Shown here in pieces: positions 5,238-32,593 of a DNA stretch of 32,593 bases. Source of the stretch: Paenibacillus alvei. GTDB lineage: Bacteria > Bacillota > Bacilli > Paenibacillales > NBRC-103111. Position numbers and translations under genes: made by a program. The DNA is taken from NCBI GenBank assembly GCA_945881905.1, contig CAMCVV010000024.1, positions 1 to 32,593 on the forward strand, written 5' to 3'. Positions within the stretch are counted from its first letter, which is position 1; every line of letters starts with the position of its first letter. Below the pieces are notes generated by a model, which worked only from the letters and a program-made list of their open reading frames with translations, did no database searches and was not told the DNA's origin.

Positions 5238-5239
5238 AG

Positions 5240-6217
5240 GTGAAATTAGAGAGCGGGATTGTGAAAGCAATCGGCAGCACACCTTTAATCAAGCTCAATC
5301 GGTTGTTCGAAGGTGAATCGTTCCATGTGTACGGCAAGATGGAGTGGATGAACCCAAGTGGCAGTGCCAAAGATCGACCTGCACTCTATATGATGCGAGA
5401 AGCGATAAATCGTGGTGAAATCACCAGTGAAACCGTTGTGATCGAATCAAGCTCAGGCAATCTTGGTATCAGTCTAGCGCAAATATGTGGATATCTAGGT
5501 CTTCGATTCATTTGCGTCATCGATCCGCGTACGACAGAGCAACACACACAAATTATTCGTAGCTTCCGTGGAGAAATCGAATGCGTCACGGAACCAGATC
5601 AAGAGACGGGCGAGTATCTACCAGCACGGATTCGACGAGTGAAGGAACTGCTTCAGCATATACCGAACGCCTATTGGACGAACCAATATGGGAACCCTGA
5701 CAATTATGTGGCACATTGGGAAACCACGATGAGTGAAATCGGGGAACAGCTTGGGCCCATCGATTATTTATTTTGTGGAGTAAGCTCATGTGGAACGATA
5801 CGCGGGTGTATGACGTATATACGTAGCCGTCAGTGGGCAACTCAGATTGTAGCTGTAGACGCGGCGGGTAGTGTGATTTTCGGAGGGGAGAAAGGCCCGA
5901 GAAAGTTTCCTGGATTAGGTTCAGGGTTAAGACCAGATCTGTATCGAGATGATTTAGCAGATATCGTCATGTATGTATCGGACAGTGACTGTGTTCGAGG
6001 CTGTCGTGAATTGGCGAAGCGCGAATCAATCTTGGCGGGAGCATCCTCAGGAGGTGTTATATCTGCTGTAGCACATATGAAGCATAGTATCATGGAAGGA
6101 TCGATTTGCGTAGCGATACTTCCGGATCGAGGTGAGCGATACCTAAGTACAGTATACAACGATACTTGGGTATACGAACAATTAGGCTTTGATCCTTGTT
6201 CTTTGAAAGGTGGATAA
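5240..6217 (+). CDS. sbnA: 2,3-diaminopropionate biosynthesis protein SbnA (PLP-dependent)
   Basis: A cysteine-synthase-fold enzyme. In the known pathway SbnA joins O-phospho-L-serine and L-glutamate into N-(1-amino-1-carboxyl-2-ethyl)-glutamate, which SbnB then oxidises to L-2,3-diaminopropionate. Key parts are GSTPLIKLNRL near the start, the PLP lysine in NPSGSAKDRPA (about residue 46 from the upstream ATG), the substrate loop SSSGNLGIS, the phosphate-binding stretch CGVSSCGTIRG and AGASSGG. The ATG at 5234 overlaps the previous stop, but GGGAGG at 5227-5232 lies only one base before it and seven bases before GTG 5240. The GTG is therefore the more likely start (325 residues). Pairing with SbnB supports the specific call over an ordinary cysteine synthase. 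Confidence 0.88.
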   Translation: MKLESGIVKAIGSTPLIKLNRLFEGESFHVYGKMEWMNPSGSAKDRPALYMMREAINRGEITSETVVIESSSGNLGISLAQICGYLGLRFICVIDPRTTEQHTQIIRSFRGEIECVTEPDQETGEYLPARIRRVKELLQHIPNAYWTNQYGNPDNYVAHWETTMSEIGEQLGPIDYLFCGVSSCGTIRGCMTYIRSRQWATQIVAVDAAGSVIFGGEKGPRKFPGLGSGLRPDLYRDDLADIVMYVSDSDCVRGCRELAKRESILAGASSGGVISAVAHMKHSIMEGSICVAILPDRGERYLSTVYNDTWVYEQLGFDPCSLKGG

Positions 6218-6220
6218 AGC

Positions 6221-7201
6221 ATGATCTATGTGAACGATGGTCATATTCGAGAGATCGGTGTTGACTGGGAACAATTGATCCACGTCATCGAGGATGTAGT
6301 AAGGATAAAAGATGCCGGTGATTGTGTAAACCCGCTCAAGCCCTATCTGCGATTTCATGAATCCATGAATCGGATTATTGCGATGCCAGCCTTTGTTGGG
6401 GGAAGCTATCAGATGGCAGGGATCAAGTGGATTGCTAGTTTCCCGAATAATACGCACATCGGACTGCCGAGAGCTCACAATACCATCATACTGAATCGAC
6501 CTGACACAGGTGAACCGATAGCATTTTTTGAAAGCAGGTTACTTAACGGGATACGAACAGCTGCCGTTAGTGGATTAATGCTTCGTTGTTATCTCGCGCA
6601 GAGGCGACTTGTCAAGCTACAGATCGGAATTATCGGATGGGGACCAGTCGGTCGTCTTCACCTTGATATGTGCTTCAAGATATGGGGAGATCACATTGAC
6701 CGTATTACCTTATATGATATTCGAAGTATTGATCCAAATACGATACCCGCTCACGTAAAAGCCATTACGGTTATTGCAGATGATTGGCGTTCAGTCTATA
6801 GAGAATCGAATGTGTTTATTACGTGTACAGTATCTTCAGAGCGATATATCAACGAAAAACCACAAGCAGGTGCATTGCTAATTAACGTATCTCTTCGCGA
6901 TTATATCGTAGATTATGTAGCGCAGGTGAAAGCGATTGTCGTCGATGATTGGTTAGAAGTATGCCGTGAAAATACAGATATAGAGCAGTTGCATCAAAGT
7001 TACGGCTTGATTGAATCCGATACATGCACCATAACAGATGTCTTATGCCATAATCGTTTGGCGGCATATGCCTGTAATGAACCGGTGTATGTCAACCCGA
7101 TGGGACTTGCGATATTCGATATTGGCATTGCGACATTCTATTTACGTGAAGCATACTTGCGAAAGAAAGGAGTGATGCTTGAAAATGCTTATGAATTCTA
7201 G
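6221..7201 (+). CDS. sbnB: 2,3-diaminopropionate biosynthesis protein SbnB (NAD-dependent dehydrogenase)
   Basis: A 326-residue member of the ornithine cyclodeaminase/mu-crystallin fold. SbnB oxidatively hydrolyses the SbnA product to L-2,3-diaminopropionate and 2-oxoglutarate using NAD. Visible marks are GIKWIASFPNN (residues 67-77, with the conserved lysine), LNGIRTAAVSG (108-118) and the Rossmann loop IGIIGWGPVGRLHL (135-148). The start ATG at 6221 is three bases after the sbnA stop, with AAGGTGG at a spacing of 7. The order activating enzyme, sbnA, sbnB makes one transcription unit. Confidence 0.88.
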   Translation: MIYVNDGHIREIGVDWEQLIHVIEDVVRIKDAGDCVNPLKPYLRFHESMNRIIAMPAFVGGSYQMAGIKWIASFPNNTHIGLPRAHNTIILNRPDTGEPIAFFESRLLNGIRTAAVSGLMLRCYLAQRRLVKLQIGIIGWGPVGRLHLDMCFKIWGDHIDRITLYDIRSIDPNTIPAHVKAITVIADDWRSVYRESNVFITCTVSSERYINEKPQAGALLINVSLRDYIVDYVAQVKAIVVDDWLEVCRENTDIEQLHQSYGLIESDTCTITDVLCHNRLAAYACNEPVYVNPMGLAIFDIGIATFYLREAYLRKKGVMLENAYEF

Positions 7202-16022: not shown

Positions 16023-17840
16023 GTGACCTTCAAAATAAAGTGGGTTCATGTGCTACTGTTGGGTGTACTGATTTCATTTCCCCTCATCATGATATGTATG
16101 CTTGTACCTATTTGGCAACACCACCACGAGTTAACGCGATTAAGTATGAGATACATCGATATGGAATTATTATCAAGTTATATGATGGCTACACTGTTTC
16201 AACGAGGAAGATATTTGAAAAATCATAGGATCACTAAGGGGACATATTTCTTTTTATTCTGTCTGTTTTCATCCTTATTCGTAGTGATACAATCTGAGGA
16301 AATGCTGTCTCGAATCTTCAATAACGTATCGAACATAACGCAATTGAAAGTAGAAGTGATTCTACTAATCGGAAGCTTATTCCTTGCAAATCGATATACG
16401 TATCATCTCGATCTGCAACCGGATCAAACTGTAACGATGAAAATCCTTGATTTTTTGACATTGCTTTTGACCTTCCAAACCATATTCACAACGGCTACTT
16501 CTTACACAGCATATATATATATACTTATTGTCTATGGAGTCATCATAAGTTCTCTTACGGTATTGAATTTGATTCGAGTAATCCAGCAACATGGCAAAGG
16601 TTCTCATCTTCTTGTAGTAGGTATGCTGAGCTATGGGCTATTCGTGATCACAGGCATACTTACTCCTATGGGTACGAAGGATCTATATATGATACAACCC
16701 ATGCTACTACTACTTTTCATCTTTACACAAACCGTATATCTATCCTTAACGATCAAGTATTCCCGTCATCTTAAGTCGCATCAACTCTATTCGACACCTA
16801 TCCCTGCACAAGGTTTGGAAACTAGAAGTTCTCAAACCCCTAAAGTTGCTTCTTCCATTTTGATCATTCATGATGCATACCGGAGTGTCAGCTTCCTAGC
16901 CTCTATGTTAAGAGATGAACAGGATGTTGTTCATACAGTGAGTAACGGAATCGAAGCATTAGAACTCATTATACAAGGTAATTGCTATGACTTATTAATC
17001 GTAGATGTCAATCCGTCGGGGAATTCGGGAGTTGAAATATCTCGAATATTCAAAGCAACGCATCCCAATATGGACGTACCTATTTTACTTATCATCGACA
17101 AATCGATGTCAATCGATTCTGAAGCAAGTTATTTGGAAGTAGTGAATGATATAATTCGCAAGCCTTTCGATCCCATCGAAGTGATATTTAGAGTAAGAAC
17201 ATTGATCAAGTTAAAGAAAGCTGAAGTGAAGCTTCATCAAGCCGAAATGTTGATTCTCAAAGCACAAATCAAACCGCATTTCTTCTATAACGCACTCAAT
17301 ACGATTGTTTCGTTTTGTTATACGGACTCCCATAGAGCAGGAGAATTACTTACGCAATTCAGTCGATATTTAAGAAATAGCTTTGATTTCCAAGATCATG
17401 TGGATTATGTCTCTTTCCATAAAGAGCTAGAAGCGCTGAAAGCGTATCTGATGCTAGAAGATGCTCGGTTTGCCGAACGACTTCAAATTCAGTGGTCTAT
17501 CGATCCTCAATCACATGGATGCAGGGTGATTCCATTTGCAGTTCAACCCATTGTCGAAAACGCAATACAGCATGGAATCATGTCGCTTGAACAAGGCGGA
17601 CAAGTCACGATTTCTTCACAACTCATCGATCAAGACCTATGGATCTTCATCACTGACACAGGAGTCGGTATTGCTCCAGAAGTGCTTTCTTCGATAATGG
17701 ATATGCAAACTATGTCAAGAAGTTTTGCGCTTAGAAATATTCATGCTCGCATGATTCATCTAACAGGTGAAGGATTGCAGATCGAAAGTGAGTTAGGAAA
17801 AGGAACTAAGGTTTCTATTTGTATTCCACAGTTGAGGTGA
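16023..17840 (+). CDS. hybrid sensor histidine kinase: 7 membrane segments, receiver, LytS-type kinase
   Basis: 605 residues, GTG start directly behind AGAGGAGG. Seven hydrophobic segments fill residues 8-243. Residues 276-395 form a receiver domain with the phospho-acceptor D328 (LLIVDVN) and K380 (IRKPF); its acidic pocket is reduced to HD at 283-284 instead of two acidic residues. Residues 410-605 are a His_kinase/LytS core: H419 in IKPHFFYNALNTI, N513 in VENAIQHG and the ATP loop DTGVGI (545-550). There is no sizeable extracellular domain, so the signal is probably sensed within the membrane. It is followed after four bases by a receiver-SARP regulator, its obvious partner. The internal receiver may return or gate the phosphate. 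Confidence 0.88.
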   Translation: MTFKIKWVHVLLLGVLISFPLIMICMLVPIWQHHHELTRLSMRYIDMELLSSYMMATLFQRGRYLKNHRITKGTYFFLFCLFSSLFVVIQSEEMLSRIFNNVSNITQLKVEVILLIGSLFLANRYTYHLDLQPDQTVTMKILDFLTLLLTFQTIFTTATSYTAYIYILIVYGVIISSLTVLNLIRVIQQHGKGSHLLVVGMLSYGLFVITGILTPMGTKDLYMIQPMLLLLFIFTQTVYLSLTIKYSRHLKSHQLYSTPIPAQGLETRSSQTPKVASSILIIHDAYRSVSFLASMLRDEQDVVHTVSNGIEALELIIQGNCYDLLIVDVNPSGNSGVEISRIFKATHPNMDVPILLIIDKSMSIDSEASYLEVVNDIIRKPFDPIEVIFRVRTLIKLKKAEVKLHQAEMLILKAQIKPHFFYNALNTIVSFCYTDSHRAGELLTQFSRYLRNSFDFQDHVDYVSFHKELEALKAYLMLEDARFAERLQIQWSIDPQSHGCRVIPFAVQPIVENAIQHGIMSLEQGGQVTISSQLIDQDLWIFITDTGVGIAPEVLSSIMDMQTMSRSFALRNIHARMIHLTGEGLQIESELGKGTKVSICIPQLR

Positions 17841-17844
17841 ACCT

Positions 17845-18990
17845 ATGATTACAGGAATTATTGTAGATGATGAGATCCCGTCGATTGAACTGAACAAACG
17901 CGTACTAGAAGCTAGTGGAGATATTCGGATTATTGCATCATCGCACAAACCCAAAGAAGCACTTAGACTCATTGAGCAATTAAAACCAGATGTAGCATTT
18001 ATCGATATTCAAATGCCAAATATGAGCGGATTTCAGTTAGCTCATCGAATCCAAGTTTTATCTATCCATACCCAAATCGTATTTGTTACAGCACACGAAA
18101 AACATGCACGGGAAGCATTTGATATCGAAGCTATGGATTACTTGCTGAAGCCCTTAGCATTAGATCACACGAAAAGAATCGTCAAAAGAATCAAAAAAAT
18201 AAAGGAAAAGATAAATTATCTAGATGAGACAGAGAGTCATGGGGGCATATTCATATTAGGTGCGATGAAAGTATCGAGCCAAGACTTAGACGAGCAAACT
18301 TTCAGATGGAGAACGAATAAAACTGCAGAACTGATGGCCTATTTCTTAATCAATCTTGGTGAAGAAGTGACCAAAGATAAAATTATTGAATCATTGTGGC
18401 CCGATTCTGATATCCTCCAAGCTTCAACTCATCTGCACACTACGATCTACAAACTGAAAGATACGTTAAAAAAAGCGAAAATACCTGCTGAATTGATCTA
18501 TCGTGAAGGATCATATTACTTCAAGCTACATGATATTTATATCGACTTGGTGGAGTTTGAGTTGTTGATGAAGTCCAAAGAGGAAGTACAATCGAGAAAT
18601 CTGTCTTGGTTTGAAGAGAAACTTGCTTTATACAAAGGCCACTTATTTGGAGATAAGGATTATCCTTGGTCGACAACGGCTAGAGAAACTTACCTATTGA
18701 ATTTCATTACGCACACTACCCGGGTAGCAAGCTATTATCTTAAACAACATGAATTTCAAGCAGCCAAGAGACATCTCCTCAAAATCTTACAAGTCTCTCC
18801 GTATGAAGAAGAAACACATTGGAAAATACTGAACATTTATTATCAAACGGACGATCGAGTTACTTTTTTGAAGCACTATCAACAACTGGTTAAGCTATTT
18901 GAAGCAGAGCTAGGAATATTGCCAAGCAAAGCAATCAAACAATTGTATGATCAATTTCAGAATGAAAATAAATCCAACAATCATAAGTAA
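17845..18990 (+). CDS. response regulator with SARP-type DNA-binding and BTAD domains
   Basis: 381 residues. Receiver at 1-120: acidic pair D8/D9 (IIVDDE), phospho-acceptor D54 (VAFIDIQMPN), T82 and K102 (LLKPLAL). An OmpR-like winged helix at about 135-230 has WRTNKTAELMAYFL and ESLWPDSDILQASTHLH. A bacterial transcriptional activation domain (helical repeats) at about 235-375 begins IDLVEFELL and ends LGILPSKAIKQLY. SARP proteins activate transcription from direct repeats with an 11-base period overlapping the -35 region. Such repeats are present right after this gene. The ribosome site GAGGTGA overlaps the stop of the kinase gene, so the two are co-translated. Predicted target: the surface protein genes downstream. 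Confidence 0.9.
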   Translation: MITGIIVDDEIPSIELNKRVLEASGDIRIIASSHKPKEALRLIEQLKPDVAFIDIQMPNMSGFQLAHRIQVLSIHTQIVFVTAHEKHAREAFDIEAMDYLLKPLALDHTKRIVKRIKKIKEKINYLDETESHGGIFILGAMKVSSQDLDEQTFRWRTNKTAELMAYFLINLGEEVTKDKIIESLWPDSDILQASTHLHTTIYKLKDTLKKAKIPAELIYREGSYYFKLHDIYIDLVEFELLMKSKEEVQSRNLSWFEEKLALYKGHLFGDKDYPWSTTARETYLLNFITHTTRVASYYLKQHEFQAAKRHLLKILQVSPYEEETHWKILNIYYQTDDRVTFLKHYQQLVKLFEAELGILPSKAIKQLYDQFQNENKSNNHK

Positions 18991-18992
18991 AC

Positions 18993-19036
18993 ATTAGAAG
19001 TTCATTAGAAGTTCATTAGAAGTTCATTAGATGTTC
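18993..19036 (+). repeat. four tandem 11-base direct repeats, candidate SARP operator
   Basis: ATTAGAAGTTC occurs three times without a gap (18993-19003, 19004-19014, 19015-19025), then once as ATTAGATGTTC (19026-19036). The period of 11 puts every copy on the same face of the helix. The array starts just after the SARP gene stop and ends where the promoter of the first surface gene begins. Confidence 0.85.
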
Positions 19037-19054
19037 AGATTCGGTTGTGATAAT
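19031..19054 (+). promoter_or_regulatory. SARP-type promoter of the surface protein operon
   Basis: ATGTTCAGAT (19031-19040) is followed by an extended -10 TGTGATAAT (GATAAT 19049-19054), with 18 bases from motif start to -10 start. No -35 hexamer is present; the last repeat takes its place. The same motif, spacing and -10 occur at 27647-27670. Confidence 0.7.
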
Positions 19055-19115
19055 TGGATTAAGGTAACCAATCAAAGAAATGTGTATATGATATCAATGG
19101 AAATTGGGTGAAATC

Positions 19116-21980
19116 ATGGAGTTACACCGAATGATGACCAGCACATTCATCAGTATACTGATATGTAGTTCTTTCTTTGTTACGACCAATACTTCAATAC
19201 TAGCAGATGCACAGAACATCACACTTCAACCAGAATCCAAACCCTTATCATCCATCACTTCAAATCGACCGAATTCAAGTTTGGCGACTTCAATAAGTGA
19301 TTTTTTTGTTAGAAGTCTCTCCTTAGATAACTACACATTGGGTTATCGGCAAGTCAATGGGGGAATCCCTCGTGTATGGACCAATCTCCCGGACGAGCAT
19401 CTAGAAATACCTGTTGATTCTTTCGAAGATCAGTCATTGAATGACACGATGAGAACGATCGTGACAGGGTACACGGCAGATAAACAAATCAAATTAACTC
19501 ACGTAACGACATATCACATCGGAGATCAACTGATCAAGATGACGATTACTTGTGAGAATATCTCTCCACAAAAACTTCATGACATCCGATACTTGAGGAT
19601 TCTTGATATCGTGAATGAGGAAGCAAGCGGACAACTACCTCCTGATATGTCGATCGAAGGAACTGTTCATCAAGTCGTCAAGAACTTCTCAGTAGATATC
19701 CCTTCAGATGAGGGTATAGCTGTAGTAGCAATGATCCATCCAACCCATGAAAGCTTAGGGGCATTATTATCGTATGATCCTAGATCAAGAGCAGCAGTCT
19801 TCCCTCGAACCATAGATAAAAAGCTCATGTTAAATCCCTATGTGGATTCTACATGGAAAGCTAGAGGGGAACTTATGAAAGCGACTATGGATTATAGAGG
19901 TGCGGTGGGTACACTAAGTTACCAACTTGGTGATCTATCTGTCGGCCAAAAGGTAAGTTTCGAATATACTTATTTTTTGGGTAGTCAGCTCGATCAAGTA
20001 CCACACGAACCAAGCGAACCTGCGATGCCCAAACTCAAATCATTATTGATTCAAGGTGCAGTCGGTGCGATGACTCCATCTTTTCACCCATCCATAAACC
20101 AATACGCTTGGGATATAGAGGATCGCGATTACACGAGAAATTCAATCAGCATTGTACCCACTGCTGAAGGTAATTCGATGATTCTCGTGAATGAACAGCT
20201 AGTGATGAGCGGCTCCACATCACCTCCGATTCTGATAAGAACGGGAAGCAATCTAATTGATATTCAAGTGATATCCGCAGACGGTTTCCATAAACAAACG
20301 TATCAGCTCACTGTATACCGCCACACACCTGGACTTATTGACCTTAAGCTCAACCCGAGTGATACACCTATTCTTTTGGAACCTAGACAATATGTGTATG
20401 GTGTAGTTGTGCCCCATGAAACAGAAACGATTTCTTTGACGCCTATGCAGAGCCAACTCGATTCAGAGGTCACGATCACTGTGAATGGACAATTGGTAGT
20501 GAATGGTTCACAGAGCCAGATGATTCCGATTTCCCAAAACATAGTAAACGATGTGGTCATTCGATATTCGCACAAAAATAAATATGATATTCCTGAAGAT
20601 CTCATCTACATGATTAAGATTACGCGGCAGCCGGCTAATGTAGGAGGGGGTAAAGGTGGATCCGAAAACATAGGTCACCCGAAATCGGGAATCACAACTA
20701 GTCTCATCTTTGAGACAATGGAGCCTGTAGTAATCGATAAGGGAATCATAGAAGTCTCACTGAAAGATGGCGACGTAGCAAGTCCAGGTGTCTATATGAA
20801 AAAAACCGTTCAGATCTCTGATGAACAGATGCAGAAGTCGATAGAGTCATTGTCTTCGTCTCTAGAACAAGTCGTACAACTTCTTCTCATCGATCCATTA
20901 AATCAGGTATCTGAAATTAAATTAGAGTTATCACAGACAGCGATTGATATGTTGAAGAGAAGTGGAGCGGGTTTCGCAATCTTGACTAGAGATGTCTCGA
21001 TGAGTCTTCCGAAAAAGACCGTGGCCGCGATACCCAAAGATTTCGCACTCACCATCAATACGAGTAAATCCACGGAGGCACATCGTCAAGAAGAAATCAA
21101 GGCTAATCAACAGATCAAGCAGTTAATGAATACAGAGAACGTTACTATACAATGGGCAGGGAATCCTATCCAGATTATCACGAATCTACAAGGACATGAG
21201 GTAGAGGTAACGATACCCATAAATGAAACATGGATTCCCAGAGAACCCATTCAGCGTCAGAAATATTTGAATCGATTGGTACTGTTCATCGCTCACAGTG
21301 ATGGGGAAAACGTCTTTACAAGAGGCAAGTTAAAGATGAATTCGCTTGGTAAATTAACCATAGAGACGACGACTAATACATTCAGCATGTTCAATACCTT
21401 GTCCATGTCTCAAGCACCTGTAGCACAATTACCCTACATGTTAGGCTATCCAGACCGATCATTTAAGCCCAATGCTTCCATCTCAAGGAGCGAAATTGCA
21501 TCGATCATATCACGCCTGAGCTATAAGAGCTCAAGCGAAGTTGTAACACGATATGTGGATGTGCCTATCGAACATTGGGCATATCAAGCAATCTCTATGC
21601 TAAGTGGCCTAAAGATCATGACAGCGTATGAGCAAGGAAGGTTCTACCCTCAACAAGTAGTGACTCGCGGTGAAATGGCCGTAATTCTCACCAATTGGAT
21701 TGGTCTGACTCAAAGAAAGTCCACAGATATAGGTGATATCACAGGTCACTCATTACAAGTACCCATCGAAAAAGTAATCTATGCAGGGTACATGATCGGT
21801 GATCCATCAGAATCCTTTCGACCGGATGAACCGTTAAGTCGAGCAGAAACTGTAGTGATGATCAATCGAATTCTTGAGCGAAAACCGATTCCACATACAC
21901 ACACATTCAGTTGGACAGATATCGACGTAAATTTCTGGGGTTACTCAGACATTCAAGCAGCTACACAATCATCACAATGA
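19116..21980 (+). CDS. exported SLH-anchored surface protein with one cadherin-like A-B repeat pair
   Basis: 954 residues from ATG 19116, with GGGTGA just upstream; a TTG at 19104 would add four residues (numbering below is from that TTG). Residues 1-36 are a signal peptide. Residues about 60-295 are a beta-rich domain (TTYHIGDQLIKMTITCENIS) that may be a divergent form of the N-terminal module of the next two genes. Residues 311-510 are one pair of cadherin-like sandwich repeats (GAMTPSFHPSINQYAW, then PGLIDLKLNPSDTP). Residues 520-770 are a pre-SLH domain shared with the next protein (SGAGFAIL, TNLQGHEVEV). Residues 775-950 are three SLH domains with SRSE, TRGE and SRAE in place of the TRAE motif. 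SLH domains bind pyruvylated cell-wall polymer, so the protein sits on the outer surface. It begins the operon with the next gene. Confidence 0.85.
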   Translation: MELHRMMTSTFISILICSSFFVTTNTSILADAQNITLQPESKPLSSITSNRPNSSLATSISDFFVRSLSLDNYTLGYRQVNGGIPRVWTNLPDEHLEIPVDSFEDQSLNDTMRTIVTGYTADKQIKLTHVTTYHIGDQLIKMTITCENISPQKLHDIRYLRILDIVNEEASGQLPPDMSIEGTVHQVVKNFSVDIPSDEGIAVVAMIHPTHESLGALLSYDPRSRAAVFPRTIDKKLMLNPYVDSTWKARGELMKATMDYRGAVGTLSYQLGDLSVGQKVSFEYTYFLGSQLDQVPHEPSEPAMPKLKSLLIQGAVGAMTPSFHPSINQYAWDIEDRDYTRNSISIVPTAEGNSMILVNEQLVMSGSTSPPILIRTGSNLIDIQVISADGFHKQTYQLTVYRHTPGLIDLKLNPSDTPILLEPRQYVYGVVVPHETETISLTPMQSQLDSEVTITVNGQLVVNGSQSQMIPISQNIVNDVVIRYSHKNKYDIPEDLIYMIKITRQPANVGGGKGGSENIGHPKSGITTSLIFETMEPVVIDKGIIEVSLKDGDVASPGVYMKKTVQISDEQMQKSIESLSSSLEQVVQLLLIDPLNQVSEIKLELSQTAIDMLKRSGAGFAILTRDVSMSLPKKTVAAIPKDFALTINTSKSTEAHRQEEIKANQQIKQLMNTENVTIQWAGNPIQIITNLQGHEVEVTIPINETWIPREPIQRQKYLNRLVLFIAHSDGENVFTRGKLKMNSLGKLTIETTTNTFSMFNTLSMSQAPVAQLPYMLGYPDRSFKPNASISRSEIASIISRLSYKSSSEVVTRYVDVPIEHWAYQAISMLSGLKIMTAYEQGRFYPQQVVTRGEMAVILTNWIGLTQRKSTDIGDITGHSLQVPIEKVIYAGYMIGDPSESFRPDEPLSRAETVVMINRILERKPIPHTHTFSWTDIDVNFWGYSDIQAATQSSQ

Positions 21981-22015
21981 TGAAAGATAAATAGAACCTA
22001 AGAGGAGGATCGCAT

Positions 22016-25000
22016 ATGAAATTATGGAGAACCGCAATTCATGTATCGCGAATTTTGTTACTCATGTTAGGCTTATATGTAACTCTTGTAGTACCTGCGC
22101 ATTCTGAATCTTTGGACTCCGTTACCTTAGGCGGTGGTACCAATGGTAATGAGAAACCATTGAAAATTATCGTCTACAAAAACGGCGATATTGCACCTTA
22201 TTTATGGCAACCAACTGTAGTGGAGAACGGAAACTATTCATATTACAGGTATATCAATCAATACTTTGGTGACACCGATTTTGGCTTGAAACTTTCATTC
22301 AGTATCAATGAAGTACTTTATAAATACAGCACACCATATAATCATTTTTCACATCAAACAATTGAGACTTTACTAAGTGATGGTAACCTCATCGTCATAG
22401 ATGCGAACACTGTTGTCATTCAGTGGACACTGGCACAAGGAATCAAGCTTTCATTCAAAATACACTATCCTGAGAATGCCAGATATTTCGAAAAGACTTG
22501 GATCATAGAAAATGCGACAGAAAGTTCTTCGAATACATCCATATCGGATCTCAAGATCATTTATGGGGGGGATACTTTTTTTGGTGGAGATGATATGGCA
22601 CAATCATTTTATAATGCGGGTTTAAATATGGTCTATTTGAAAAATTCGAATGTGAACCTTACTGGAATCATGGGGTTCTCTGGCAACGTGATATCACCAG
22701 CAAGCAGATACTTTAGCGGACTTTATTATTTGGGAAACAGTCTAGCTAGGATAGGGCAATTAGATAATACTTCAGACGCGGTATATCAAGATGCAGGATA
22801 CCATTTGCAGTGGGATCGTTCTGCCGCATTGCTACCTGGTGAGTATTGGGAAGTGAAAGCCACCGAGCAATGGACCCCACCCGGAGGAGCGCAAATCATT
22901 GCACCTCCATCGAAGATCGTTAAACCTGGCAATCAAGTAACGTATCAATTTCTAACGCAAAATTTCGAACAAATCACGATAGTCGGTGATACGCAAATCG
23001 ATAACGACACATTCCAATTCATAGCTTCATCAGCTATCGATAATACTCCGACAATCACAGGCGGTTCGATCCGTTCGTTGAACCGACGGGGAGGAACAGA
23101 TATCGTCGAAGTGACCGTGGACATACCTCCTAATACTTCTGCAAGCTCTGACGTACTCACGCTTACGATGATTAAGACAGGAACCGACTCTAGCATAAGT
23201 CAATCAGCATCGGTGACTTCGTATATTCAATACCCTCAATTGAGAGGGATTCGATCAAATACAGGGGATATGTCACCTTCATTTTTACCTGAAGTGTTAG
23301 ATTATCAAATCATCGTTAACGATGTGCTTAATCAAATCAATGAAATCAAGTTGACTCCTGTAGCTTATGATGATGAAGTCATCACAATCAATGGCGCTAC
23401 AGTAACCAGCGGGGAGCAAAGTGAGCCTATCGCGATTCAAGTTGGAAACACGTCAATCACAATAAATGTCGCTAGACCTGACGGGGGAACAATAAGAACC
23501 TATACCATAGATGTGTGGCGAAAAGCACCAGGATTCACCAATATCACTTCGAGCAAAGGACAATTCACCCCTGCTTTCAATAACGAGACAATGTCATATA
23601 ACATCAAGGTTTCTTCCGAAACAGATCGCATTCAATTCACTCCGACTATGACGGATTTCGATCCGAATGCGACAATTCATATTGCAGTAAATGGACAAGT
23701 ACAGACGGTTGTGAGCGGAACAGCAAGCACTGAAATTCCCTTGGTCCAAGGGGTAACTCAACTCATCACAGTAACCTACTCAAGCGTGAAGATACCGAAT
23801 CCACGCATATATTCGATCAATGTAGTAAGGCAAGCACCCTTGTTCACATTGAGTCAAGGGACATTATCACCTCTGTTTGATAAAGAAATTACGACGTATA
23901 CCGTTAACTTAGACGATGTGCTCAATACCATCTCAAGTATAACGATTAAGCCGAATATGTATCAAGGGGAGGTCATGAAGATCAATGGCGAAATCGTCAG
24001 CAGCGGATCCGATAGTCCACCGATATATCTTAATTCGGGTGTGAACTCGATTACGATTGAAGTAACCTATGCACCCGGAACACTACCGACAACGTACCAA
24101 GTGAATATCAATCGCAACATGTCAGGTCTGACAGCGATAGAATTAAGCCGCTATCCACTCACTACTCATGTAGATCCATTGGTAACAAGTTATCATACTA
24201 CCGTATCTGCGATTACAGAAACGATCCAAATCACGCCAACCATGGGTAGGGTAGACCCCAGCGCAACGATTAGCTTGACTGCTAATGGACAGACACAAAC
24301 CATCATGAGCGGTACAATCAGCACAGAGATTCCACTTGCGAGAGGAGTCAATAATCCAATCACGCTCACATATGTAAGTGTGATAAATCAGATAACTTTG
24401 ACATATACCGTGAACGTCACCCGTGAGAAGGAGTTATTCCAGCTGTATGTTAACGGTGCGATGCGTGCGTATTCACCTGTATTTGATACGTCTATTCGCA
24501 CCTATACAGTGAACCTAGTAGACATGAATAGTAATCAGAATGAGATCATAATCATTCCCAAACTTCAAGAAAATGACATCTTGAAGATCAATAATTCGAG
24601 GGTAGATGCCCCAACTTCCAATCAAGTGTTACCCATACAGTTTGGAACAAATACCATCAAATTGGATGTAAAGACCAGAGGAAGCACTTCGTTCGAAACG
24701 TATACGATCATGCTCAATCGGACAATTCCCGGTCTCTCACAAATAGAATTAAATACGGATCAAGTACTTCTAGATATGGAGCCCAATCAATTGAATTACA
24801 CAGGGCAGGTGTCTTCAGCGACGGCAAGCATTCGCATCACGCCAACAATGAGTAATCATGATGCGAATGCGACCATTACGATAGTCGTTAATGAACAACC
24901 ACAAGTCGTTATCAGTGGGGCCCAGAGCACAGAGATTCCGCTGACCAAGGGAATAGACAATATCATCAAACTGATATATTCAAGCGAAGAATTAGAGTTT

Positions 25001-27535
25001 TCACGTATCTATGAGTTAACCATATTCCGTGAGGAGGACTTATTCCAACTAAGTGAAGGTAGTCTAGATCGCGAATTCGATCCATCTATGTATCAGTATG
25101 AAGCCATCATCAACGACAATCTAAATAATAAGACCAGCACGACATTCTCGTTCAATGTGTACCATGGTGAGCGTGTAAGTGTGAATAATCAACTTGTAGC
25201 TAATGGCACAAGTCAACCAATTCCTTTGCAAGTCGGGGATAATCGGGTCACGATCATCGTTACCAGCTCCGATGAAGCCATCTCCAAAACATATGCAGTG
25301 ACGGTTCGTAGATCAATTCCAAGCCTTACTTCAATTGGACTCAGCACCGGACAACTAGATCGTATATTTGATCCGCTGCAATTTGTATATCATATCCAAG
25401 TAGCATCTGCAGCAGATACGATCATGCTTAGTCCGATCATGAGCAGTAATGATCCGCAAGCTACCATCGAGATTAAAGTGAATGGCGGACAATCTCAATA
25501 TGTTGCTAGTGGTGAACTGAGCACATCGATTGCCATTGCAGCCAATATAGCCAATCTCATCACCATTGAGTATAGAAGTCCGAATTTGAAAGTAAACCGA
25601 TTATATAAGATAAATGCAATTCGTAAAGTGAAGGATATATCCGTTAATCGGGGTACACTAACGCCTAGTTTCGATCCTTCCATCTTTCAATATGAGGTCA
25701 AACTGATAGATCGAGAATTGAATATGAATGATATTCAAGTGACTTCAAGTGTGTATGTGAGTGAGTCGATCCAAGTGAACGGTGAAACAGTTAGTAATGG
25801 TGGTTCAAGTAGGAAAATTCCATTAAATCCAGGTGAAAACCTGATCCAAGTTCTCATCAGAAATGAGCTGAACAATTCACAGAACATCTATAAGATTAAG
25901 GTATATAGAGAGATTCCTGGTCTAATGGGAATCATCCTTAGCGAAAAACGAATAAATCCCGACTTTTCACCATTCAAAGATACGTACGATGCAGTTATAC
26001 CGAATTCTTCGGAAAACATTAAGGTGAAGCCTGTTATGAGTTCTCACGACACCACAGCAACGATTACCCTACTTGCTAATGGGCAAACGCAAATACTTCA
26101 AAGTGGTCAAGCAAGCAATCCGATTAATATCTTGAGAGATGTTAATAATCCAATAACGATCAGCTACATTAGTGAAGAACTAGGCATTAATCGTGTATAC
26201 ACGATTAATGTTAAGCGTCAGCCTATATTCCTGATCGATCCGGGAAATGAGACAAACTTAGATTTCTCATCAGTATCGAATTCAAGCTCCGGCACAACCC
26301 AAATGGGATATGCAAATATTAAAACCGATATCAAACGTGTTAATTTAAGTGATGGAACGATCGTCAACCAAGTCGACTTGTCGGCAAGTGAAGCACTAGC
26401 AGCAATCAATCAATTATCCAAATATACAGATAAAACGTTACAGCTCCAAGTCAAAGATCCTAGTAATGAAGTATCCCAAATAAGGATTTCCTTAGCTAAG
26501 GGAACTCTTGATGCCATCTCTGATAGCGGTGCAGGACTCTCAATCATATCAAACCGTGTATGTGAGCGAATACCCAATTATTCATTCAAAGATTTGCCCG
26601 AAGAGATATCGATGTCAATTGATTCTAAGAAAGAACAAATGATCAGTCAAGAAAAAAAGAATGAAATTCAAACAAATGTGTCCAATATTTTACGAGAAAA
26701 AATTGAGATATCGAAGATGTATCAACCTATCTCGATCGTTACGAATCTACAAGACCGTGAAGTCTTATTAGATATCATTGTCGATCCGAGTGTAATTCCT
26801 TCGAATCCGATAGCACGTCAATCATTCATAAACAATATTGCTGTGTATGTGCAACATAGTGACGGTGAAGTGTCTCTCGAGAAAGGTCAATTACTCCAAA
26901 CAGATTGTGGACTGAACTATCGGGTTTACACTAAAAAATTCAGTACATTCAATCTATTAAGCATGACAAATGCCCAAATCGGTAATACAGCTTATATCAG
27001 TGGATACCCCGACGGTACGTTTAAACCTGGGGTCATTATCACCAGAAGTGAAATCGCTATGATTATTTCACGCTTATCAGAAAAAGACGTAATAGTGAAA
27101 GACACGTCCTACAAAGACGTATCCACGTCCCACTGGGCGTATGAAGCGATTAGGGAAGTAAGTGTTCAAGGGATTATGTCACAGTACACCCCCTCTCAAT
27201 TCTTACCTGATCGAGGAATGACACGCGGGGAAATGGCTGACATTCTAGTGAAATGGTTTGATTTAAATACAACAGGTCCATCGAATTTATTGGATATCAG
27301 CAAACATCAATATCAATCATCGATTGAAAAAGTAGTGAAAGCTGGTTATATGAGAGGGGACCCAGGAGGCACATTTCGTCCTGACGATACAATTAATCGG
27401 GTAGAGACAGTTGTGATGCTCAATCGAGTGCTAGGGAATATTCCTTCCCAACCGCCGAAGAGTTCATATTTCTCAGATATTGATAGTACTTATTGGGGTT
27501 CGGGCGACATCCAAATTGCAACAAAGAAGAGATAA
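22016..27535 (+). CDS. giant SLH-anchored surface protein with five cadherin-like A-B repeat pairs
   Basis: 1839 residues, AGAGGAGG seven bases before the ATG, 35 bases after the previous gene. Signal peptide 1-30. Residues 37-293 are an N-terminal module opening TLGGGTNGN.KPLKI and containing YLWQPTV. Residues 294-403 are an Ig-like module (IIAPPSKIVKPGNQVTYQF, NRRGG). Residues 406-1402 are ten cadherin-like repeats of about 100 residues, strictly alternating between type A (LFxLSxGxLxPxFDxxxxxY) and type B (PGLxxIxLS...TPTMSxxDxxATI). Residues 1403-1650 are the shared pre-SLH domain (DSGAGLSIISN). Residues 1655-1839 are three SLH domains (TRSE, TRGE, NRVE). It is probably a long rod-like cell-surface fibre or adhesin. 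No catalytic residues or sortase motif are visible. Confidence 0.87.
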   Translation: MKLWRTAIHVSRILLLMLGLYVTLVVPAHSESLDSVTLGGGTNGNEKPLKIIVYKNGDIAPYLWQPTVVENGNYSYYRYINQYFGDTDFGLKLSFSINEVLYKYSTPYNHFSHQTIETLLSDGNLIVIDANTVVIQWTLAQGIKLSFKIHYPENARYFEKTWIIENATESSSNTSISDLKIIYGGDTFFGGDDMAQSFYNAGLNMVYLKNSNVNLTGIMGFSGNVISPASRYFSGLYYLGNSLARIGQLDNTSDAVYQDAGYHLQWDRSAALLPGEYWEVKATEQWTPPGGAQIIAPPSKIVKPGNQVTYQFLTQNFEQITIVGDTQIDNDTFQFIASSAIDNTPTITGGSIRSLNRRGGTDIVEVTVDIPPNTSASSDVLTLTMIKTGTDSSISQSASVTSYIQYPQLRGIRSNTGDMSPSFLPEVLDYQIIVNDVLNQINEIKLTPVAYDDEVITINGATVTSGEQSEPIAIQVGNTSITINVARPDGGTIRTYTIDVWRKAPGFTNITSSKGQFTPAFNNETMSYNIKVSSETDRIQFTPTMTDFDPNATIHIAVNGQVQTVVSGTASTEIPLVQGVTQLITVTYSSVKIPNPRIYSINVVRQAPLFTLSQGTLSPLFDKEITTYTVNLDDVLNTISSITIKPNMYQGEVMKINGEIVSSGSDSPPIYLNSGVNSITIEVTYAPGTLPTTYQVNINRNMSGLTAIELSRYPLTTHVDPLVTSYHTTVSAITETIQITPTMGRVDPSATISLTANGQTQTIMSGTISTEIPLARGVNNPITLTYVSVINQITLTYTVNVTREKELFQLYVNGAMRAYSPVFDTSIRTYTVNLVDMNSNQNEIIIIPKLQENDILKINNSRVDAPTSNQVLPIQFGTNTIKLDVKTRGSTSFETYTIMLNRTIPGLSQIELNTDQVLLDMEPNQLNYTGQVSSATASIRITPTMSNHDANATITIVVNEQPQVVISGAQSTEIPLTKGIDNIIKLIYSSEELEFSRIYELTIFREEDLFQLSEGSLDREFDPSMYQYEAIINDNLNNKTSTTFSFNVYHGERVSVNNQLVANGTSQPIPLQVGDNRVTIIVTSSDEAISKTYAVTVRRSIPSLTSIGLSTGQLDRIFDPLQFVYHIQVASAADTIMLSPIMSSNDPQATIEIKVNGGQSQYVASGELSTSIAIAANIANLITIEYRSPNLKVNRLYKINAIRKVKDISVNRGTLTPSFDPSIFQYEVKLIDRELNMNDIQVTSSVYVSESIQVNGETVSNGGSSRKIPLNPGENLIQVLIRNELNNSQNIYKIKVYREIPGLMGIILSEKRINPDFSPFKDTYDAVIPNSSENIKVKPVMSSHDTTATITLLANGQTQILQSGQASNPINILRDVNNPITISYISEELGINRVYTINVKRQPIFLIDPGNETNLDFSSVSNSSSGTTQMGYANIKTDIKRVNLSDGTIVNQVDLSASEALAAINQLSKYTDKTLQLQVKDPSNEVSQIRISLAKGTLDAISDSGAGLSIISNRVCERIPNYSFKDLPEEISMSIDSKKEQMISQEKKNEIQTNVSNILREKIEISKMYQPISIVTNLQDREVLLDIIVDPSVIPSNPIARQSFINNIAVYVQHSDGEVSLEKGQLLQTDCGLNYRVYTKKFSTFNLLSMTNAQIGNTAYISGYPDGTFKPGVIITRSEIAMIISRLSEKDVIVKDTSYKDVSTSHWAYEAIREVSVQGIMSQYTPSQFLPDRGMTRGEMADILVKWFDLNTTGPSNLLDISKHQYQSSIEKVVKAGYMRGDPGGTFRPDDTINRVETVVMLNRVLGNIPSQPPKSSYFSDIDSTYWGSGDIQIATKKR
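23231..26220 (+). repeat. tandem array of ten cadherin-like domains in an A-B-A-B pattern
   Basis: Protein-level repeat, weak at DNA level, so old. Type A units open near LRGIRSNTGDMSPSF, LFTLSQGTLSPLFD, LFQLYVNG, LFQLSEGSLDREFD and ISVNRGTLTPSFD. Type B units open at PGFTNITSSKG, SGLTAIELS, PGLSQIELN, PSLTSIGLS and PGLMGIILS. Type B units carry an extra conserved TPTM...DPxATI stretch. Confidence 0.8.
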
Positions 27536-27635: not shown

Positions 27636-27670
27636 ATGTTCAGAAAATGTTCAGATACATTATAGATAAT
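27636..27670 (+). promoter_or_regulatory. SARP-type promoter of the third surface protein gene
   Basis: ATGTTCAGA occurs at 27636-27644 and again at 27647-27655, a period of exactly 11 bases. GATAAT follows at 27665-27670, 18 bases from the start of the second copy to the start of the -10. The arrangement matches the promoter at 19031-19054. A weaker in-phase copy (GTGTGAAG, 27625-27632) may extend the array. Confidence 0.7.
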
Positions 27671-27926: not shown

Positions 27927-30900
27927 ATGAAAAAAACCATGATGTATTATACAAATGTAATCCTCCTCCTCACGATATTCGTTCAACTATTTGCGATAAC
28001 GCCGAGCGCTAATGCTACAGAGGCTTCACAAGTTCAAGAAATCATAACAGGGAACATGGCTACACTTGGTGGAGGTGCAGATGGCAATAATCCGTTGAAG
28101 ATCGAGATTAATCGCAACGGAGAACTAGGTATTTATTTATGGCAACCTTCTTCTGTAGGTGGTACTGTCTATGCTTATATGCCTCAATATAATAATGGGA
28201 AAGATGTAGGTGGGAGGGCAAGTGTTCAACGACATGTTCGTGGAAGTAACGAATTCGGGGATAGCTATACAAGCGAACCTTATTTCATGAATCAATCATG
28301 GACATTTGATTATATAAATACACCTGTGTTAACGCAAATAGATGCCAATACAGTGAAATTAAGATATCCCAACTTCGCTGGGACTTACAACGTATCTGCT
28401 GAAAAAATCATTACCTATGTACCAGGTAGTCGTAAGATGCAAGTGGAATGGAAGTTCATTAATGATCATCTACAAGATCAAATTGTAGCGATAAACTTTA
28501 AATATGGGGGTAACGTCACACCAGGAGGCATAGCACAATCTACTGGTTACTATGAACCAGAGATGTCTACGATTTATTTCAAAAATGATGCGAGTCCATA
28601 TGCAGGTATGATGAGCATTACATCAAGTCCAGATACACCATTCATAAATTATATGGTTGGAAATATTACTGATTTAAACAATGCAGTAGGTCATCGAAAA
28701 GATTTACCAAACACAGTGAATTCTAGTTTAACGAATGCAGGGTATTATTTCCAATGGATCACAGAAGTTCTCAATCCAGGACAATCTTCTAGCTATAAAT
28801 TCGAAATGCAGTGGAGTAAACCTGGTCAAGTAGGTATGATTGCTCCTGCGTCGCAAACGACGAAAGTCGGGAAATCAATCAGACATAAATTCCTTGCAAT
28901 CAATGATTTGCCAGTAGATGGAACCATCACGAAAGATGATTTTCAAATCTCGCTTAATTCAAACGTGGATATCACCCCTACTTTGTCAGGTCTTTACACC
29001 AATAATGTAACAACCATCAACCGCGGTGGAGGAAAAATTTTCATTAATACAGTCATTGATGTTCCACCGGATACACAGCTGACGTCTGATGAGATAACAG
29101 TGACTTTAACAGATCAGAGAGTAGGAGTTCCAATATCACCGGTTACAGCGACTGCGAAGACGAATATTATGTTACCTCCATACAATGAAACACCAGATAA
29201 CCCAGCAGAGAGAATCACATTAGGTGGTGGAACAAATGGCGCGAATCCGCTTAAAGTCGTGGTGGACAGATATGGGAATATTGAGACCCATTTATGGCAA
29301 AAAACACCAGATGCATACGGGAGCTTGTATTACGATTATGTCTCGCAATACGATCATGATAAAGATTTTGTAACACAAATCTATTATGATGTGCAATACG
29401 ATTATAATTCTTCTTCATCAGGTCATTATACTGAACCTTATAATACTTCGAAGTATCATTTATTTGATAAGTATCAACCTGGGACATTAACCAAATTAGG
29501 TCCTAATATAGTCAGTCTAACGAATTACTTACAACCCGATAATCCTTATCTTAAAGTTGTGAAAACAATTACGTATCTTCCGGGAACTAGGAGTTATGAT
29601 ATTGAATGGGCAATCACAAATGTATTTCCTTCAAGCACATTTTCCAAATATTATAGAAATATATGGCTTACTTTCGGTGGCGATACGAAGAATGGTGGAG
29701 AAGACTATGGCAATGCTTACTATAGCTCGAGTCTTCAAACCGCGTACGTCAAAAATAATACGATAGATGTTGCTGGAGTCATGAGTGTGGTGGCAGATGC
29801 GAATTCACCTATCAGAGGATATTTTGCAGGAAATATTCAGACAGGGAAACTCTTGGCATATCAAAAAGCTATAAAGGATACAGTAGATAGCTCTTATACA
29901 GATACTGGATTTTATTTACAATGGACACGAGATAGACTTAATTTAGGGGAAACATGGAATACAAAAGCAACGGTACAATGGACAGAACCAGGGAAACTAG
30001 TAATTATTCCTCCGCCAAGCCAGACAGTAAAAGCAGGAAATGCTGTCACATATCGGTTTTTCGTGATGAATTTCGAAGATCCAGCGAATGGTGTGACAAG
30101 TGATGTATTTAATGTGAGTGCGACTTCACAAGTAGATGCAACACCAACGCTTTCAAGCAATTCAGTGACGATCAATCGAAGTGGAGGAAGTGCAACAATC
30201 GATGTCACAATAGATGTTCCATTAGGAGTTACTCTCACTAAAGATGACGTCGGGCTTACGGTGACACATGCTACACTTGGCTCAGTATGGCAAAATAGCG
30301 GTAAAGTTACGACACAAATCTTGTTTCCTGCGTTAATCGATTTGCAGACAGACAGTGGCACACTTACACCTAGTTTTGATCCAACCGTATATAATTATAA
30401 CGTCACTGTAGCGGATACAGACACCATTAAGTTCACACCGACAGCAAATGCCGGTGAAACCATCAAAGTCAAGGGTACAGGAGTAGCTAGCGGAACAGCA
30501 AGCAGCGCGATTTCGTTAGTAGAAGGCGCAAACATCATTCCAGTAGAAGTCACCAGTAGTGATGGAACATTGAAGCGAACATATAATATTACAGTGAATA
30601 GTGTCGTCCCGGGTATTACAGGCATGGCATTAAGCACAGGAACATTATCGCCTGCTGTCAGTATTAAGCAACCCACATACAGCGCGAGCGTGCCTTCTAC
30701 TACATCAAATATTTCGATTACGCCAACCAAGACTGCAGATGACTCTAACGCGACCATTACCATTACGGCTAATGGTGCATCGCAGACTGTAGCGAGTGGC
30801 AGCGCAAGTACCTTGATTGCATTGACCAAAGGAAGCAATAATGTCATTTCCGTAGAATATAGAAGTAATCAGCTGGGTGTGACTCGGATCTATACATTAA

Positions 30901-32593
30901 ATATTACACGCGAAAAAGATTTAATCACGTTAAGTCAAGGGACGCTTACGCCATCGTTTGATCCGAGTATCATGAATTATCAAGTGACAGATATTAACTA
31001 TGCGGTTAACAGCATTACGTTAACTCCAACTGTATATAGTGGGGAAACTGTGAAAGTCAACAATACACTTGTCTCAAGTGGAACCGCAAGTGCATCTATT
31101 TCTTTACTCTCAGGCAATACCTCGATCCAAGTCGATGTGACCCAAACAGACGATACTACGAAATCATATACAGTAACAGTCGTTCGCAATATACCAGGTA
31201 TAATAAACATGCCACTGAGTGCGGGACAATTAACTCCTGCTGTAGATCCGAATACGCTCATCTATAGTGCGCGCATTCCTGCTAAGGAAAGTAGTATCAG
31301 AGTGACACCTACGATGAGTCCCATAGACCCTAACGCAAAGATGACCATTCAAGCTCCAGGTTGGAATAATGGTGTGGCTAAATCCATCACAAGTGGATCG
31401 GCAAGTGAGTTTATTCCTATTGCCAAAGGTGAAACGAAAGTGATTACGATTACTTATAATAGTGCGACATATAGCGAAAACAAAGCTTATCAATTAAGTA
31501 TCACAAGAGAAAAAGATTTGCTTACCTTTAATCAAGGAGCGGAATTAAGTCCGCAATATGATCCTGCGACTACGAACTATACCGTCAAATTGATTGATAA
31601 GAACATCAATATGACGAGTATTGACATCACACCCAATGTGTATAATTCGGAAACAGTGACAATCAATGGGCAACCTAAAAGCAGCGGTAGTGTGTATACA
31701 GCCACTAATTTGACAATAGGTTCAAACCTCATTCCGGTTGTGGTGACGCCTTTAGGGGGAGGAACAGCGAAGACATACACTATTGATATACAACGGATTG
31801 TTCCGGGTTTAGCGAATTTAACGTTAAGTGCTGGACAAGTCACTCCTGTAGTGAAAGCAGAAACGCTAAGTTATACAGCTCAAGTTCCATTCAATGTCAG
31901 TAGTATTACACTTTCACCGCTTGCAAATGAAGCAGACATTGTCGCGTTGTTCGATATATCAGCAGATGGTTGGAACAATGGTCAAGTGCTTAATATAGCA
32001 AGTGGAGATCCTTCGACTTCTATTCCTTTGGAAAAAGGGGTTCCAAAAGTCATTACCATCATGTATAAAAGCACTATATATCCAGATGTAACGCGCGCTT
32101 ATACACTGACTGTCATGCGGGAAAATGATTTATTCACAATCAGTCGCGGCACTTTAAATCCAGCTTATTCTACTTCAGTGAATGCATATACCGTGGATTT
32201 ACTGGATAAAGATTTAAGCATGAACGACATCGCGATTACTCCACGTGTCTACAATGGTGAATCCGTTACTGTGAATGGAATAGCTGTTGCTAATGGAGTA
32301 GCAAGTCAGTTAATTCCATTAAATACCGGTACCAATACCATTACGATGGTTGTAACCCCTACAGGCGGAGGTTCACCTAGAACCATTACCATAACCATCA
32401 ATCGGTTAGTACCTGGGATTAGTGCGATTGCGTTAAGTGAGGGCGCATGGTCACCTACAGTAAATACGTATACCTTAACCGGATATACTGCGCGTATTCT
32501 AGCGAAGACTGCTAGCATTACAGTCACACCTACAAAGAGTAGCGAAGATCCCAGTGCACAGATTACAGTTTCGGCGAGTGGATTGAATGGTGG
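27927..32593 (+). CDS. giant exported surface protein with duplicated N-terminal module and at least four cadherin-like A-B pairs, partial
   Basis: Starts at ATG 27927 behind AAAGGAG and stays open for at least 1555 codons to the window edge. Signal peptide 1-31. The N-terminal module seen in the previous protein occurs twice: from residue 46 (TLGGGADGNNPLKIEI, IYLWQPSS) and from 430 (TLGGGTNGANPLKVVV, HLWQK). Each copy is followed by the Ig-like module (304-428 and 693-800) with a conserved NRGGG/NRSGG motif. From about 801 the A-B cadherin-like repeats run on: A at LIDLQTDSGTLTPSFD, LITLSQGTLTPSFD, LLTFNQGAELSPQYD and LFTISRGTLNPAY; B at PGITGMALS, PGIINMPLS, PGLANLTLS and PGISAIALS. The C-terminus, expected to be SLH domains, is outside the window. 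It has its own SARP-type promoter. Confidence 0.85.
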   Translation, partial: MKKTMMYYTNVILLLTIFVQLFAITPSANATEASQVQEIITGNMATLGGGADGNNPLKIEINRNGELGIYLWQPSSVGGTVYAYMPQYNNGKDVGGRASVQRHVRGSNEFGDSYTSEPYFMNQSWTFDYINTPVLTQIDANTVKLRYPNFAGTYNVSAEKIITYVPGSRKMQVEWKFINDHLQDQIVAINFKYGGNVTPGGIAQSTGYYEPEMSTIYFKNDASPYAGMMSITSSPDTPFINYMVGNITDLNNAVGHRKDLPNTVNSSLTNAGYYFQWITEVLNPGQSSSYKFEMQWSKPGQVGMIAPASQTTKVGKSIRHKFLAINDLPVDGTITKDDFQISLNSNVDITPTLSGLYTNNVTTINRGGGKIFINTVIDVPPDTQLTSDEITVTLTDQRVGVPISPVTATAKTNIMLPPYNETPDNPAERITLGGGTNGANPLKVVVDRYGNIETHLWQKTPDAYGSLYYDYVSQYDHDKDFVTQIYYDVQYDYNSSSSGHYTEPYNTSKYHLFDKYQPGTLTKLGPNIVSLTNYLQPDNPYLKVVKTITYLPGTRSYDIEWAITNVFPSSTFSKYYRNIWLTFGGDTKNGGEDYGNAYYSSSLQTAYVKNNTIDVAGVMSVVADANSPIRGYFAGNIQTGKLLAYQKAIKDTVDSSYTDTGFYLQWTRDRLNLGETWNTKATVQWTEPGKLVIIPPPSQTVKAGNAVTYRFFVMNFEDPANGVTSDVFNVSATSQVDATPTLSSNSVTINRSGGSATIDVTIDVPLGVTLTKDDVGLTVTHATLGSVWQNSGKVTTQILFPALIDLQTDSGTLTPSFDPTVYNYNVTVADTDTIKFTPTANAGETIKVKGTGVASGTASSAISLVEGANIIPVEVTSSDGTLKRTYNITVNSVVPGITGMALSTGTLSPAVSIKQPTYSASVPSTTSNISITPTKTADDSNATITITANGASQTVASGSASTLIALTKGSNNVISVEYRSNQLGVTRIYTLNITREKDLITLSQGTLTPSFDPSIMNYQVTDINYAVNSITLTPTVYSGETVKVNNTLVSSGTASASISLLSGNTSIQVDVTQTDDTTKSYTVTVVRNIPGIINMPLSAGQLTPAVDPNTLIYSARIPAKESSIRVTPTMSPIDPNAKMTIQAPGWNNGVAKSITSGSASEFIPIAKGETKVITITYNSATYSENKAYQLSITREKDLLTFNQGAELSPQYDPATTNYTVKLIDKNINMTSIDITPNVYNSETVTINGQPKSSGSVYTATNLTIGSNLIPVVVTPLGGGTAKTYTIDIQRIVPGLANLTLSAGQVTPVVKAETLSYTAQVPFNVSSITLSPLANEADIVALFDISADGWNNGQVLNIASGDPSTSIPLEKGVPKVITIMYKSTIYPDVTRAYTLTVMRENDLFTISRGTLNPAYSTSVNAYTVDLLDKDLSMNDIAITPRVYNGESVTVNGIAVANGVASQLIPLNTGTNTITMVVTPTGGGSPRTITITINRLVPGISAIALSEGAWSPTVNTYTLTGYTARILAKTASITVTPTKSSEDPSAQITVSASGLNG

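Follow-up and report, generated by a model that had tools for sequence, protein, structure and literature searches.

Here we describe a tandem array of 11-bp repeats between a response regulator gene and a set of surface-protein genes in Paenibacillus alvei. The array is very probably the operator of the adjacent regulator, a two-component REC-wHTH-BTAD protein that, judging from sequence comparison, would activate the surface genes in the style of a SARP. The stretch analysed, 32,593 nucleotides in length, is referred to as the window throughout, and the features of the cluster are collected in Table 1.

Table 1 Features of the regulator–surface gene cluster in the window
Feature	Description	Position	Strand
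Sensor histidine kinase	N-terminal membrane region, REC, His_kinase, HATPase_c; proposed partner of the regulator	16023..17840	+
Response regulator	REC (5–110), OmpR-type wHTH (157–212), BTAD (234–370); proposed activator	17845..18990	+
Proposed operator 1	Four head-to-tail 11-bp units, ATTAGAAGTTC three times and ATTAGATGTTC	18993..19036	+
Promoter-proximal core pair	8-bp cores AAGTTCAT (19020–19027) and ATGTTCAG (19031–19038), 11 bp apart	19020..19038	+
Promoter 1	-10-like box GATAAT	19049..19054	+
Surface protein 1	Cadherin-like (two), SLH (two); first gene of the proposed target operon	19116..21980	+
Surface protein 2	Cadherin-like (eight), SLH (two)	22016..27535	+
Proposed operator 2	ATGTTCAG (27636–27643) and ATGTTCAG (27647–27654), 11 bp apart	27636..27654	+
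Promoter 2	-10-like box GATAAT, 18 bp from the core start	27665..27670	+
Surface protein 3	Cadherin-like (seven), extends past the window end; proposed target of operator 2	27927..32593	+

The regulator and its gene cluster

The regulator is the sole full-length REC-wHTH-BTAD protein encoded in the genome, and its gene abuts operator 1. Its BTAD scores 51.2 bits (cut-off 22.1) and its Trans_reg_C domain 25.8 bits, slightly below the cut-off of 26.2. An OmpR-type wHTH followed by a BTAD is the domain combination of SARPs. However, the wHTH of SARPs is N-terminal, whereas here the receiver domain comes first, and we therefore class the protein not as a classical SARP but as a two-component relative with a proposed SARP-like mode of action. 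Judged by domain order, it has the REC, wHTH and BTAD arrangement of the SAPR family of response regulators (COG3947). A profile of 51 regulators of the family matches, over wHTH and BTAD, both EmbR of Mycobacterium tuberculosis (E 4e-17, the best match to a natural protein in the PDB) and AfsR (E 4e-15, PDB); EmbR carries a C-terminal FHA domain, in contrast to the N-terminal receiver of the window protein. An AlphaFold two-sequence model of the regulator (mean pLDDT 55) was too poor for fold searches.

The first-pass annotation had regarded a Firmicute two-component SARP with its operator alongside as new. The protein type is not, being common in the family: REC-wHTH-BTAD regulators (E < 1e-40), 27–38% identical to the window protein, are present in 89 of 104 family genomes, with up to nine per genome. 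For Firmicute regulators of the SAPR/COG3947 type, the open-licence literature yielded no described operator or target, which is weak evidence that the operator site is new. The genome itself is small, at 2.4 Mb against 4–10 Mb for most family members, and holds one SARP-type regulator against several in many relatives, which suggests genome reduction.

Downstream of the regulator, surface genes 1 and 2 are separated by 36 bp and are probably cotranscribed as an operon. The start of surface protein 1 appears in the ORF list as a TTG at 19104.

The repeat array and promoter 1

The array begins 3 bases after the stop codon of the regulator gene, with copies of ATTAGAAGTTC at 18993, 19004 and 19015 and the variant ATTAGATGTTC at 19026, and no gaps between them, exactly as the first-pass annotation had it. 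Tandem Repeats Finder (TRF) places the array at 18992–19037 (period 11, 4.2 copies, 97% matches) and ranks it as the top-scoring tandem repeat in the window. The identity run at offset 11 extends over 29 bases. None of 100 Markov-1 simulations of the window gave a run longer than 10, and the remaining offsets of the real sequence give runs of 6–18.

From the first base of ATGTTCAGAT (19031) to that of GATAAT (19049) is 18 bases, the distance reported earlier. Promoter 1 has no usable -35: at spacers of 15–19 bp, at most 3 of 6 positions match. The register of the cores in operator 1 was fixed by a family-wide rule, according to which the core start plus 18 gives the -10, and the earlier copies of the unit stand further upstream of the promoter-proximal core pair thus defined. 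Only 6 of 8 core bases agree between the last two units, which counts against the operator reading.

A second proposed operator and its confinement in the genome

Operator 2, which the first-pass annotation missed, stands ahead of the third surface gene in a perfect two-core form followed by N10 and GATAAT. Its core, 11-bp step and 18-bp distance all match those of operator 1, and promoter 2 is also without a -35. SARP sites are direct repeats with an 11- or 22-bp step and a 3′ unit 8 bp from the -10 (PMC10936776), the AfsR repeat is given in a review as CGTT(T/C)ATCGNN (PMC10972967), and PimR binding needs at least two repeat units (PMC5930380). In the window, TTCAGAT-N8-GATAAT is present at both sites, so that the 3′ repeat lies 8 bp from the -10, and the repeats are direct with a step of 11 bp; SARP repeats overlap or replace the -35, which both promoters lack.

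With at most one mismatch, operators 1 and 2 are the only matches to TGTTCAGAT-N9-ATAAT in the whole 2.4-Mb genome (99.6% complete), and a looser two-core pattern has exact matches in the same genome at these two sites only. Within the window, no operator copy was found in front of the regulator's own operon. The site is tied to the window regulator by where it lies, by the fact that it is unique in the genome and by the agreement of its core with the helix (see below).

Other GTTCA-N6-GTTCA arrays in the genome, on C13 and C23, were set aside because neither has a clean -10 at the 18-bp distance. The C13 array sits among DnaA-box-like TTATCCACA repeats, which form a cluster with CAGTTCATCCA repeats ahead of a carbonic-anhydrase-like gene (L048; G000:C13:36690-36760). 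The C23 array consists of about five TGTTCATAAAC units directly before an esterase-like gene (L051; G000:C23:25976-26030).

Recurrence beside related regulators

The same design was sought at 121 related REC-wHTH-BTAD regulator loci of the family by comparing intergenic DNA near to and far from the regulator gene. Exact repeats of at least 8 bases near the regulator numbered 43 at period 11, against 0–7 at each of the remaining periods between 5 and 33, and far intergenic DNA of the 121 loci contained 6 runs at period 11; these locus counts are not independent trials, as the loci have common ancestry. A rigid model, comprising two 8-mers with an 11-bp step and a core start 18 bp before the -10, fitted near the gene at 52 of the 121 loci and far from it at 9, with 0–9 near matches for other repeat offsets. 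That only 52 of 121 loci satisfy this strict model counts against the operator reading. Per-locus counts are used here instead of a grid scan, which was too noisy with a lax -10 rule. Among 60 loci from other families of the order, 13 period-11 runs were found against 0–5 at other periods, together with 17 matches to the rigid model. Among the putative targets at other loci are giant proteins carrying SLH, Ig-like, fn3 or lectin domains, as well as the kinase gene itself.

In the nearest relatives (L053, L054, L055, L057 and L059), NTGTYCAG pairs with the same spacing lie in the same cluster as the regulator, whose helix resembles that of the window protein (LHTT or LHTA, with Q or K at position 203). 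The pair at L053, which reads TTGTTCAG-ATGTTTAG, stands immediately before the regulator gene. Most pairs precede surface genes encoding SLH and cadherin-like domains (L059, L055) or SLH and collagen domains (L057, L054). With at most one mismatch, the motif has 18 matches in six genomes (approximately 49 Mb) and its reversed control none; many of the matches lie ahead of secreted-protein, kinase or regulator genes, and several have no clear target. A contig scan for close relatives returned one only, from Paenibacillus glycinis (36%), with no matching pair near the regulator. The first-pass annotation had proposed looking for the repeats upstream in relatives and would have counted their loss against an operator; the opposite was found, as the design is present in the nearest relatives and recurs throughout the order.

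At L057, two back-to-back operator pairs (oriented +6045 to +6071; G103:C23:32249-32342) lie between an SLH/collagen/BclA_C gene and a gene for a SecDF–glycosyltransferase fusion.

Core bases and the helix of the adjacent regulator

In the AfsR structure, R92 contacts T-38 and T-27, both of which are essential in the afs box, and T88 contacts the base pair at -36/-25 (PMC10936776). If GATAAT is numbered -12 to -7, TTCA falls at -38 and -27 in the window, the register of the AfsR afs box. Across the loci, the core varies with the helix of the adjacent REC-wHTH-BTAD protein, even between paralogues within one genome. At the position equivalent to R92, R goes with G at -27, Q and K both go with T, and S and G both go with C; at the position equivalent to T88, N goes with G at -25, and T is found with either C or T. 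Of 55 clean sites, 53 have the base at -27 expected from the R92 equivalent (within-genome shuffling, p 0.045), and of 59 clean sites, 53 have the base at -25 expected from the T88 equivalent (within-genome shuffling, p 0.021). For base -27, the R92 position ranks first among all columns by normalised mutual information. A tree-based test of the code contained only two independent contrasts and was not significant, and common ancestry may underlie the association. In the window protein, the R92 position is occupied by K and the T88 position by T, and the core bases are T-27 and C-25; this agreement with the code represents consistency and not prediction, because the window sites themselves contributed to the code.

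On balance, we favour a reading in which two-component SARPs across the order share an operator grammar (at least two 8-bp cores, an 11-bp step and a core start 18 bp from the -10) and a readable code, in which the AfsR R92 position would set base -27 and the T88 position base -25, with paralogues keeping separate sites and separate targets, either giant surface protein sets or their own kinase operon.

Alternative explanations

At 29 CssR-like control loci, which encode OmpR-type regulators without a BTAD, we found 4 period-11 runs, with the core TGTTCATATT where readable. The 11-bp step is thus a property of OmpR-type wHTHs more widely and is not diagnostic alone. PhoP/OmpR-type regulators have the same type of wHTH as the window protein and bind direct repeats in tandem, but have no BTAD, and the cores at the CssR-like loci are different ones (TGTTCATATT). 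The array in the window could be the operator of such a regulator without a BTAD, PhoP-like or CssR-like, with the SARP-type gene a neighbour by chance. Period-11 TGTTCATATT repeats at CssR-like loci fit this explanation, as does TGTTCATATTGAGTTCAC, a GTTCA pair beside a regulator of this kind in the window's own genome. TTCATT and TTCAGA are, in addition, each one base off the B. subtilis PhoP box. We nevertheless consider the explanation unlikely. The exact composite with its -10 is confined to this cluster in the genome, the core follows the helix of the adjacent REC-wHTH-BTAD protein, paralogues included, and the nearest relatives retain the NTGTYCAG pair beside the SARP-type gene.

The TGTTCATATTGAGTTCAC pair (L177; G000:C25:11485-11517) precedes a TATACT box and is flanked by a CssR-like two-component pair on one side and a gene for an RND-type transporter on the other; its relatives have period-11 TGTTCATATT repeats.

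It is much less probable that we are dealing with a slipped-strand minisatellite that tunes the surface operon by varying in copy number (phase variation), the regulator being incidental. Three exact 11-bp copies do point to recent tandem duplication, and copy number differs among relatives, most of which have only two whereas L080 has three. However, the same core and spacing are found with two copies at 27636, the cores have diverged across the order while the 11-bp step and 18-bp distance were kept, and a fixed distance to the -10 is predicted neither by chance nor by slippage. Copy-number change superimposed on an operator is possible.

Least probable is that the repeats repress, or terminate or process the regulator transcript, as their start 3 bases past the regulator stop codon might suggest, given that both promoters are without a -35, which fits a need for an activator, and that the sites lie upstream of the -10 without covering it and are direct, not inverted.

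Proposed mechanism and comparison with known systems

Under SARP-style activation by the adjacent regulator, the histidine kinase would phosphorylate the regulator, and protomers would bind side by side, one per 11-bp unit, that is, one per helical turn. The bound protomers may stand in for the absent -35 and keep RNA polymerase at the GATAAT promoters, by which the SLH/cadherin-like surface genes (the operon at 19116–27535 and the gene from 27927) would be switched on. In operator 1, the two additional units further upstream probably make binding more cooperative.

The 11-bp period, the 8 bp between the 3′ repeat and the -10, and the wHTH and BTAD homology to AfsR and EmbR support the earlier proposal of a SARP binding site. 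AfsR and the afs box in the afsS promoter of Streptomyces coelicolor likewise combine a wHTH and BTAD with 11-bp direct repeats that replace the -35, with TTCA at -38 in the same register and 8 bp from the 3′ heptamer to the -10 (PMC10936776, PMC10972967). By contrast, AfsR has C-terminal NOD and TPR domains and responds to Ser/Thr kinases, whereas the window system has an N-terminal receiver with a histidine kinase, a Firmicute host and proposed surface-protein targets. ActII-ORF4 and PimR (small and SARP-LAL types) also use heptamer repeats with 4-bp spacers (PMC5930380), but are activators of actinomycete antibiotic clusters and are without a receiver domain.

Other features of the window

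A single ORF at 2037–2822 combines parts of L-fucose isomerase (the N2 domain and a truncated C domain) with the beginning of a DHDPS-family protein, which suggests either a deletion fusion or a join made in the assembly. At 3996–7201, three genes that overlap or abut one another encode AMP-binding-like, PLP-dependent (PALP) and ornithine cyclodeaminase-like proteins, with a TetR gene and an MMPL transporter gene nearby. They resemble genes for diaminopropionate synthesis of the SbnA/SbnB type, and are perhaps a small natural-product cluster.

Implications

With the operator proposed here, a large regulator family gains a predicted binding site and predicted targets. Given a fixed operator grammar and an initial recognition code, the regulons of REC-wHTH-BTAD proteins, which most family genomes encode in numbers of up to nine, would become predictable from sequence. 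These regulators would connect a sensor system with S-layer-type surface proteins carried by many of these bacteria, and the findings suggest that SARP-style promoter activation extends beyond the antibiotic clusters of actinomycetes.
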